Shown: piece after piece, positions 14,186 through 17,842 of the stretch
Numbering within the stretch: the first letter of the stretch is position 1
How the letters are laid out: every line of letters starts with the position of its first letter
Assembly: GCA_031271125.1 (NCBI GenBank)
Contig: JAISWH010000128.1
Location: 1-41,147 of the forward strand
Reading direction: 5' to 3'
DNA length: 41,147 nt
Source: Dysgonamonadaceae bacterium
GTDB taxonomy: Bacteria; Bacteroidota; Bacteroidia; Bacteroidales; Azobacteroidaceae
Position numbers and translations under genes: made by a program
The notes under the pieces: model-generated
What the model was told of the DNA's origin: nothing
What the model saw: the letters and a program-made list of their open reading frames with translations, nothing else
Database searches by the model: none

Positions 14186-16513
14186 TTACTTATTGCCGGT
14201 TAAAGTTCCCCGTTCGTTATCCACATTTTCCAGTTTTTTGCTTTGGGACTTGAATTTTCGTCCGAAATCAAAGTGAATGGAAGCTGTCAATGTAAAAAAA
14301 CGTGACAGCTCATTGGTATATAAACGTGAATAAGACGGTAACTTGGAGGATAGATTTTCTGTATATTGTTCGTAATACGTTGAAAAGGGATTAAATGCCC
14401 AAATCCCAATGGAATATTTGGGGCGGTTGTACGAAAGACTGAAAAAATGCGCCTTTTCACCGGAATCTACATTTTCTCCGGTCAGCAATCTGTTATATGA
14501 ATACATGCCGAACGTCAGGGAAAAATCTTTGTAATATCCCCATACACTTGTTCGATAATACCAGTTTGTCAAAGTATGACGATAATCATCACCCTGAGAG
14601 ATGAAACGGTTCACGCCCGGTGTTAAACTTAGTGATACATGTCTGTTAAACAGTACCAGCTTAACTGTTAAATAATTATCCAACCTCATATAATATCCCT
14701 GATTGGCGTATGTACTTATGAATTTATTGTTTTCGATAAATAGTTTATCCAGTACCGGCCGGTGTTCATACCTGAGCGTAGAAAACAGTTCCATATTCAG
14801 GATTCCTTTTTTGAAACCGGTTGACAGTGAATTGTTATAAACCGGAATCATATACAGGGCTGGATTTCCACGTCGTATCTGAAATGAGTCCATTTGCTGT
14901 TCCACATCATTTAGTGACGATAAAGAAGGAGAGTTGTTGGATATATTCCCATTATATCGGATAAAACTGTTGGAAGTCATAGCATAAGAGATTCGTAATG
15001 CAGGACGGAAAATATATCGTTCGGTAGAAAACAACCCCTGATGAAGTTCGTTCCGCTGAATACCCAAACCTAAACGGTAGGAAAATTTGCCTTTTGAAAG
15101 AATGTATTCCGAATATAAATATGTTTCTGCAAGCGTCATGTCTACTGTTCGTTCGCTTGTTCCCGAATAATCGTTATCCGTGTAACTTTGGATATGTTTG
15201 GCACCAATCATCAACATGCCACCTGCGGACATGTCTTTTTCGTATAATCCTTCCAGTATCAGGGAGTATCTGTTTCCTACCGTTTTGGAATAAATATCCG
15301 TCAGCGTTTCTGCTTCTTTGCTTTCCTGATAAATACGCGTTATATCCGAATGATTGTTTGTTCCTACCAGATTAAAAATCAACGATTGTTTATTTTTCAG
15401 CATGCGCTGGTAATATAAATCAAGCACCGGAATATTTATTTCTCCCTCCGTATGACTGTAAACATTCAGCTTGTCTGAAGCAACAGTCCCTTCCACAACG
15501 CTTATTCTGTCTGAAAACGAATTGGGAACACTTTGAAAACTGTTTCTTACAACCGCATTGAAAAAATATTTTTCAGGATCGGACAAACTGTAATTTAAGG
15601 ATGCATTCAAATTGTCTTCCTTATACTTTGTCGGTTCTCCCTTTTCTTTCCGCACCAGCATATAATCGGGAAAATAAAAACGCTCCTCATTTTCACGTGT
15701 CCAGTTTGTGTTCACATTGCGACCGTTGAGATTAAGCGTCCATTCTGATTTTTTATGATTATATTTTGCGGAAACGACATTGTCTAACAGGGTCGATTTT
15801 TGCAGCAAGCTATTGTTCATGTTGACAAAGAAACTGCCTCCGGAATTTTTTCGACGAGTAATGAAATTAAGAACAACAGCTGTTTCCCCCCCATAGCGTG
15901 CGCCCGGTTCGTCGATATATTCAACTCTTATCAAATCATTTGATTGTAAGGATTGAATTTCGTTTAAAGGAACTTCTACATTATTTACTCTGATCTGAAC
16001 GTTTCCACCACCCAAACTGCTGATCGATCGATTAACAGGGTTAATTGTAATTCTGGGTAACTGCAACTTTTCAAGCAATTGAAAAGCGCTGGGAGAAGTC
16101 TTTACCTGCGACTGCGTTGGGAAAAATATTTTCTTGTCGTACTTTACTGTGGAAGCTTCTGCCGTAACAGTAACTTCGTTTAATGTTATCGCTTCGGGAG
16201 AGAGTTTTATTTCCTCCAAATTCAGACTTTTCTCCAGATTTTCCAGCGTAATCATGACTTTTGAATAACCCAGGGAAGAAATGGAGACCAGATAGGAGGC
16301 TTTTGCAACATTGCTGAAATCAAATTTTCCGTCCGGATCGCATGCCGTTCCTTTAACAAATGTGCTGTCGGTTTTTAACAGCAGAACATTTGCTGCATCT
16401 ATCGCAAGATTGGTTTCCTCATCCATCACTCTACCCGTTATTCGCAATTGAGAAAACATGTATGGCGTACTCAAATACGCAAATAATAAAATAATATAAG
16501 TTTTTGTGTTCAT
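14186..16513 (-). CDS. TonB-dependent receptor-like outer membrane beta-barrel protein with carboxypeptidase-regulatory-like N-terminus
   Basis: 775 aa; QLRITGRVMDEETNLAIDAANVLLLKTDSTFVKGTACDPDGKFDF, then a plug-like region (ITLNEVTVTAEASTVKYDKK...VQIRVNNVEV) and a barrel. Confidence 0.9.
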   Translation of the reverse strand: MNTKTYIILLFAYLSTPYMFSQLRITGRVMDEETNLAIDAANVLLLKTDSTFVKGTACDPDGKFDFSNVAKASYLVSISSLGYSKVMITLENLEKSLNLEEIKLSPEAITLNEVTVTAEASTVKYDKKIFFPTQSQVKTSPSAFQLLEKLQLPRITINPVNRSISSLGGGNVQIRVNNVEVPLNEIQSLQSNDLIRVEYIDEPGARYGGETAVVLNFITRRKNSGGSFFVNMNNSLLQKSTLLDNVVSAKYNHKKSEWTLNLNGRNVNTNWTRENEERFYFPDYMLVRKEKGEPTKYKEDNLNASLNYSLSDPEKYFFNAVVRNSFQSVPNSFSDRISVVEGTVASDKLNVYSHTEGEINIPVLDLYYQRMLKNKQSLIFNLVGTNNHSDITRIYQESKEAETLTDIYSKTVGNRYSLILEGLYEKDMSAGGMLMIGAKHIQSYTDNDYSGTSERTVDMTLAETYLYSEYILSKGKFSYRLGLGIQRNELHQGLFSTERYIFRPALRISYAMTSNSFIRYNGNISNNSPSLSSLNDVEQQMDSFQIRRGNPALYMIPVYNNSLSTGFKKGILNMELFSTLRYEHRPVLDKLFIENNKFISTYANQGYYMRLDNYLTVKLVLFNRHVSLSLTPGVNRFISQGDDYRHTLTNWYYRTSVWGYYKDFSLTFGMYSYNRLLTGENVDSGEKAHFFSLSYNRPKYSIGIWAFNPFSTYYEQYTENLSSKLPSYSRLYTNELSRFFTLTASIHFDFGRKFKSQSKKLENVDNERGTLTGNK

Positions 16514-16604: not shown

Positions 16605-16634
16605 AAAAAGTATCTCTTACGGGACACCTGCAAA
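16605..16634 (-). promoter_or_regulatory. possible promoter of the outer-membrane gene at 14186-16513
   Basis: On the minus strand: TTTG (complement of caaa, 16631-16634), 18-nt gap, TACTTTTT (complement of aaaaagta, 16605-16612). Confidence 0.35.
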
Positions 16635-16692
16635 ACCCTGTGTTTAAGCACTGTAAATCAATAGTTTGTCAAATCAAACTTTGTGCTTCCGG

Positions 16693-16719
16693 TGTCTGTC
16701 TCTGTATTGATGACAGACA
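16693..16719 (+). repeat. 27-bp recombinase-site-like repeat, copy 1
   Basis: TGTCTGTCTCTGTATTGATGACAGACA: 8-bp inverted arms TGTCTGTC/GACAGACA around an asymmetric 11-bp core. Identical except for one base to the reverse complement of copy 2. Confidence 0.85.
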
Positions 16720-16911
16720 GCGTTTTTAAACAACTGATTTTAAGATACTTAAGAGGCCTAATGTTTTACAAGTGTTTAACAAATTGTTAAAATGGAAAAA
16801 TGAGGCTGAAAAATATAGCTTGTAAATTATTGATAATAAGATAGATAAGTCCTATTTTTACCTTTTTTATTATTTAAACAACGCTAAAACATCTATGAAT
16901 CAATAAGTTAA

Positions 16912-16952
16912 TGGGCTTCCTTATTTAGAATTATTCTAAATAAGGAAGCCCA
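16912..16952. repeat. 41-nt near-perfect palindrome
   Basis: tgggcttccttatttagaat | t | attctaaataaggaagccca; 20-bp arms with one central nucleotide. No T-tract on either side to support a terminator. Confidence 0.9.
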
Positions 16953-17050
16953 AAAAGTTTACGTGACAAAGAAATGTTGTTGCAAACAGATAGTAATCAA
17001 TTAGATAAGTGCTTGTAACTTTACGTCGGATTAAAATGCAAAAAATGAAG

Positions 17051-17077
17051 TGTCTGTCATCAATACAGTGACAGACA
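17051..17077 (-). repeat. 27-bp recombinase-site-like repeat, copy 2 (inverted)
   Basis: TGTCTGTCATCAATACAGTGACAGACA; reverse complement of copy 1 at 26/27 positions. Confidence 0.85.
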
Positions 17078-17212
17078 TTTTTGTTAAAATTTTTCGGTGA
17101 GAAAAAAAACGTCCGGACCCGGCAATTCATGGGAAAAAACGATATGAGTAATTGGATATATTAAAATATTTCGTACCTTTGCGCCGAATTAATAACTAAT
17201 AAATTAATCAAA

Positions 17213-17842
17213 ATGAAAAAAATTTTTTTAACTTTAATTTTATGTGGCTTTGTAGGAGCAATATTTGCTCAAGGTGTAAAATTCGGAGTTACTACCGGTT
17301 TGAATGTCTCAAATGAATCAATTAAATTAATTAAAACCGATTGGAAAGCTGGTTTTCAAGGGGGAGTTTTCTTGGATTACGCTGTAACGCCGCAACTTTC
17401 GCTTGTCCCTGAATTATTGTTTACTCAGAGGGGGTCCAAACTTAACATTAGTATTACAGATGATAATGGAAAAATGATCGACTCCGGTTACTCGGAAACT
17501 TTGAATTATCTTCAATTGCCGGTCAATGTGGCATACAAATTTGATTTAAGCAACGATCAGAAATTATTCCCTTTTGCCGGCGCTTATTTAGGTTACGGTC
17601 TTTCCGGATCAGTTAAATTTCAGAGAGCAGGAGTTGAATCGGGAAATACAAAAATAAAGTTCGGTTCCGCTGAAGATCGGATGAAAAGATTGGATTATGG
17701 ATTAAATATCGGAGCCGGTTACCAATACGACCACATTATATTCAAGCTGCAATATAATCATGGATTGGCTGATCTTTCCAATATAAAGGACAGAAAAATT
17801 AAAAATAAAAACCTTGCCGTTACGGTAGGCTATCTGTTCTAA
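17213..17842 (+). CDS. porin family / outer membrane beta-barrel protein
   Basis: 209 aa; signal peptide, GVKFGVTTGLNVSN, alternating beta strands, C-terminal LAVTVGYLF. TACCTTTGC promoter box about 40 nt upstream of the start. Confidence 0.9.
   Translation: MKKIFLTLILCGFVGAIFAQGVKFGVTTGLNVSNESIKLIKTDWKAGFQGGVFLDYAVTPQLSLVPELLFTQRGSKLNISITDDNGKMIDSGYSETLNYLQLPVNVAYKFDLSNDQKLFPFAGAYLGYGLSGSVKFQRAGVESGNTKIKFGSAEDRMKRLDYGLNIGAGYQYDHIIFKLQYNHGLADLSNIKDRKIKNKNLAVTVGYLF

Follow-up and report, generated by a model that had tools for sequence, protein, structure and literature searches.

Surface repertoires of the vsa/vsp type in Mycoplasma consist of clustered surface genes with one common expression promoter and with recombination sites in their 5′ regions. 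Among invertible DNA elements (invertons), published groups range from 2 to 72 members, and the median number per genome in Bacteroidota is 8.5 (PMC11892184). Here we describe a dispersed family of paired inverted sites in a member of the Bacteroidales from the termite gut, an uncultured relative of Candidatus Symbiothrix, itself a termite-protist symbiont. The starting point was a 41,147-nucleotide stretch of DNA from a Dysgonamonadaceae bacterium, hereafter the window (assembly GCA_031271125.1, contig JAISWH010000128.1; contig 15 of genome G000, which is 82.7% complete in 197 contigs). A first-pass annotation had seen in this stretch a candidate invertible switch between two divergent outer membrane protein genes.

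Paired sites and the genes they accompany

Two 27-bp palindromic sites, each with the spacer TGTATTG, lie in inverted orientation in the window, the gene-side site TGTCTGTCTCTGTATTGATGACAGACA at positions 16693 to 16719 (plus strand) and the outer site TGTCTGTCACTGTATTGATGACAGACA at 17051 to 17077 (minus strand). Their coordinates, the 331-bp spacing, and the single mismatch between them are as first annotated. The proposed architecture of a recombination site is likewise supported, with arms and spacer fitting a pattern of ~10-7-10 in which the 7-bp spacer is asymmetric. No match to the site arose in 100 shuffles of the window, and the site pattern had 84 matches in the whole genome at up to three mismatches, compared to none for the reversed control. 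The search for further copies that had been suggested for this locus yielded a sizable family: 34 paired cassettes in the window's genome and about 10 in a second species (G001, an assembly only 53% complete), besides single or truncated copies. These were the only two genomes with the site among the 41 of the genus examined; viral contigs gave no match, and an Rfam search returned nothing at the gathering score. Between the two species, the sites are identical at 24 of 27 positions and the intervening segment at 191 of 334. The element is also present on contigs assigned to Prevotellaceae bins (L060 and L063), where a binning error is likely and transfer possible.

Read toward the gene, a typical copy comprises an outer tail (TTTTAACAAAAG), a site, the 331-bp segment, the inverted site, a conserved 5′ region of ~107 bp, and the start codon. 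Homology on the gene side mostly runs on through this 5′ region into the coding start of one gene family, while the neighbors on the outer side are unrelated genes in either direction. The 385-bp unit originally delimited is therefore too short, even in the window, where homology to the other copies spans positions 16651 to 17093 and nothing beyond. It begins with a 42-bp remnant of the family genes' conserved 5′ region (16651 to 16692, minus strand), family homology stopping at 16651, and ends with the conserved, T-rich outer tail TTTTTGTTAAAATTTT (17078 to 17093, plus strand), which follows the hairpin of the outer site. The family 5′ region is present in 28 of 31 copies from the window's genome; the window copy, L049, and one copy at a contig end are without most of it. 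The segment between the sites (16720 to 17050), whose orientation with respect to the flanks does not vary among the paired copies, contains an internal palindrome, GGGCTTCCTTATTTAGAATTATTCTAAATAAGGAAGCCC (16913 to 16951), in part retained elsewhere. A dispersed repeat, ACCTGCAAAACCCTGTGTTTAG, adjoins the window cassette at 16620 to 16650 and is also found near several other copies.

Some copies depart from this plan. Three (L049, L058, and L065) are flanked on either side by the outer tail, a structure compatible with crossovers between loci. In another (L015, contig C26, ~526 to 552) the outer tail is fused directly to the gene-side site, resembling a deletion of the segment and one site between identical arms. 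Certain truncated copies are not accompanied by a family gene. The 3′ ends of the family genes were compared as the possible other limit of a larger mobile element, and no common boundary emerged.

Most cassettes lie directly upstream of genes for paralogous secreted proteins that begin with a signal-peptide-like sequence and contain FISUMP, Big_2, or PKD domains; for FISUMP, several matches score under the curated cutoff. The family counts 48 N-terminal matches in the window's genome, and the proposed targets of the cassettes number more than 25, all of them paralogous surface proteins of the FISUMP/Ig/PKD kind. The expectation that surface proteins are the targets was thus borne out at the level of the family. 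FISUMP-like secreted proteins occur in dozens of copies in several species of the genus (G002, G007, G015, and G000), with near-identical leader sequences and common 5′ regions within each species. Four such genes in G002 (L114, L117, L118, and L121) have a near-perfect palindrome of ~80 to 88 bp just 5′ of the start codon.

The window copy itself is a degenerate member of this family. Its FISUMP-type gene is missing, its promoter is weakened (see below), and the position of the family gene on the gene side is now occupied by a minus-strand gene (14186 to 16513) for a 775-amino-acid probable outer membrane protein with a CarboxypepD_reg domain. Relatives of this protein are only 28 to 41% identical and were left out of any synteny argument. 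No TAnnTTTG/TTTA box directed toward the gene was found between position 16401 and the cassette. The cassette may still influence this gene. On the other side, the gene for a 209-amino-acid outer membrane beta-barrel protein (17213 to 17842, plus strand) has a promoter box of its own, TACCTTTG, at 17174 to 17181, and we do not think that it depends on the cassette. With the family gene lost and the promoter weakened, the notion of a switch between divergent outer membrane protein genes is just partly right: the locus is one of more than 30 copies whose usual targets are FISUMP-type genes, and its reading as a unique switch between the two flanking genes is not supported.

Promoter box and its orientation

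The first-pass annotation had found no convincing outward promoter in the segment. Comparison of the copies revealed an outward promoter-like box. A TAnnTTTG box, a Bacteroidota promoter motif, occurs at a constant distance from the outer site (54 bp, measured from its outer edge) and points outward in 21 of the 31 copies compared from the window's genome; it occupies the same place, again outward, in 9 of 10 copies from the second species (three of them one base off). The window has a degenerate version of this −7 box at that place, TAACTTTA (17016 to 17023, plus strand), pointing away from the gene side. A sigma-70 scan gave matches no more frequent than chance. No box facing the gene is conserved among these 31 and 10 paired copies.

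A profile search extended this to the promoter half of the segment as a whole. Without exception, the 31 copies from the window's genome and the 7 tested from the second species have it facing away from the gene side. It faces the gene, in contrast, in four members of the gene family that have no intact pair of sites, as determined with a two-species profile. Two of these (L132 and L134) are in the window's own genome, and the others (L215 in G018 and L202 in G022) belong to outgroup species. Single-species profiles gave the same orientations, except that the profile built from the second species alone misses both outgroup genes. In addition, several family genes with no cassette have a TAnnTTTG box facing the gene. 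Promoter orientation differs between copies with an intact pair and those without, but the intact copies are all in one orientation relative to their genes and no flipped one was seen among the ~40 in the assemblies of the two species.

Since the promoter points toward the gene in the outgroup, inversion of a paired copy would recreate the outgroup order. However, the toward-gene copies have no intact second site and may be ancestral rather than flipped; the two in the window's genome may have been locked after an inversion or may be ancestral.

RNA transcribed outward in the window's genome would form a strong hairpin at the site, followed by the T-rich tail (z = −5.1 for the consensus-like sequence and −3.6 for the window copy); the corresponding hairpin is weaker in the second species (z = −1.9). 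From this predicted folding, the hairpin and tail could act as a terminator when the promoter faces outward.

Possible inversion and its alternatives

We consider it somewhat probable that these loci form a dispersed family of inversion-controlled promoter cassettes, captured by the assembly in their OFF orientation. A pair of inverted 27-bp recombinase sites would bracket a segment of ~331 bp whose single promoter is close to the outer one of the two. As assembled, that promoter would direct transcription outward, into the site hairpin and T-rich tail, whereas a recombination event between the two sites would make it face the gene, giving the order promoter, hairpin, 5′ untranslated region, and gene seen in the outgroup species (ON). 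Expression of the family genes would thus follow cassette orientation. A bolder version, that more than 25 dispersed cassettes on one adhesin-like family are invertible and nearly all OFF, so that each cell displays one or a few of the proteins, strikes us as unlikely.

Concordance of the two ends of each cassette is consistent with recombination between them. Left and right 7-bp spacers are identical in 40 of 44 pairs, where shuffling predicts ~16 (29 of 31 compared to 19 within the main subtype), the expectation being a guide only since the copies are related; whole arms, longer than the spacer, are identical in just 22 of the 44. Four spacer types, each occurring on both sides, point to repeated homogenization of the two ends. 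Gene conversion between the ends, together with common descent, can also produce such concordance.

The enzyme would presumably be a tyrosine recombinase. The window has no recombinase gene, and the search elsewhere that had been advised did find tyrosine recombinases in the genome, namely, an XerC-like and an XerD-like protein, two others, and a broken one, but none is linked to the 27-bp sites. One is encoded on contig C14, where ~1.4 kb, including an AraC-type gene, separates it from the beginning of a FISUMP gene. No tyrosine recombinase outside the Xer type was found in common between the two species with the site, neither non-Xer candidate having a match in the second, 53% complete assembly. 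The broken gene (L174, contig C54) adjoins fragments resembling pieces of restriction-modification genes.

The uniform orientation of all the intact copies is also what would be expected of a fixed 5′ regulatory module, in which a single inversion or rearrangement long ago turned the promoter outward and the arrangement then multiplied together with the gene family through duplication and gene conversion. That promoter would produce a short RNA with its 3′ end at the site hairpin, as the strong predicted hairpin and T-rich sequence would allow, the genes would use a promoter that escaped recognition, and the sites would serve as hairpins or protein-binding sites. A precedent is found in G007, where genes of the same family have two inverted hairpins separated by ~230 bp. 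The promoter lies outside this pair and is directed at the gene, and the five copies compared do not differ in orientation; inverted hairpins hence need not mean inversion. These G007 genes (L093 and L217 to L220) have a strong gene-facing promoter followed immediately by a terminator-like hairpin with a T run and, ~250 bp on, its inverted copy, an arrangement that may be an attenuator or some other type of switch. Against a fixed module, however, the conserved gene-facing box is missing from the paired copies yet present in several cassette-free family genes, spacers agree between the two ends more often than arms, which a role as hairpins does not predict, and the RNA hairpin is weak in the second species. 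We give this account some weight but consider it less likely than inversion.

Quite improbable, in our judgment, is the alternative already raised in the first pass, a miniature inverted-repeat transposable element (MITE), i.e., a nonautonomous element with terminal inverted repeats that by chance spread near the family genes. More than 30 dispersed copies with inverted ends, the three with the tail at both ends (and thus longer terminal repeats), and the truncated ones with no family gene would all suit such an element. The annotation had held that occurrence of the unit at many unrelated loci with target duplications would speak for a transposon; the unit does occur at many loci, but its copies go with paralogous genes and not with random sites, and inspection of the flanks by eye revealed no target duplication. 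Nor is the element the only sequence in common between otherwise unrelated flanks, given that gene-side homology continues in most copies past its end, through the 5′ region and on into the coding start of a single gene family. No transposase gene with these ends was encountered, and a conserved promoter box is unexpected for a MITE. When empty target sites were sought via two repeated outer flanks, nearly all matches adjoined the element; both flanks are almost confined to its neighborhood, leaving no clear empty site. An interim reading, that the lack of inversion made the unit a dispersed repeat or MITE, was revised once the gene-facing promoter halves turned up.

Were the cassettes to flip, one recombination system would control the surface repertoire of dozens of related proteins, and phase variation would be tied to life in or on the termite gut community. 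If they do not flip, the paired sites still mark a 5′ module common to the family.

Comparison with known systems

A literature search found no report of invertible promoters in termite symbionts. With inverton groups known to reach the sizes cited above, the family in the window's genome would be a large case of a known type and not a new type. Its closest counterparts are the invertons of Bacteroidota, such as the Mpi-dependent capsule switches of Bacteroides fragilis and its outer membrane protein switches operated by tyrosine recombinases. In common with these, the cassettes have short inverted sites of the recombination type on either side of intergenic DNA that contains a single Bacteroidota promoter; they also target surface genes and have one site in common across many loci. 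They differ in being homologous throughout and tied to one paralogous gene family, and in that the intact copies of both species, as assembled, are all in one orientation. The resemblance to MITEs lies in the short, multicopy format with inverted ends and no coding capacity, whereas the anchoring to a gene family, the homology past the ends, the conserved promoter, and the lack of visible target duplication set the cassettes apart. With the Mycoplasma vsa/vsp repertoires they have in common a large paralogous set of surface genes and recombination sites in the 5′ region, but each gene here has its own cassette and promoter and the set is dispersed over the genome.
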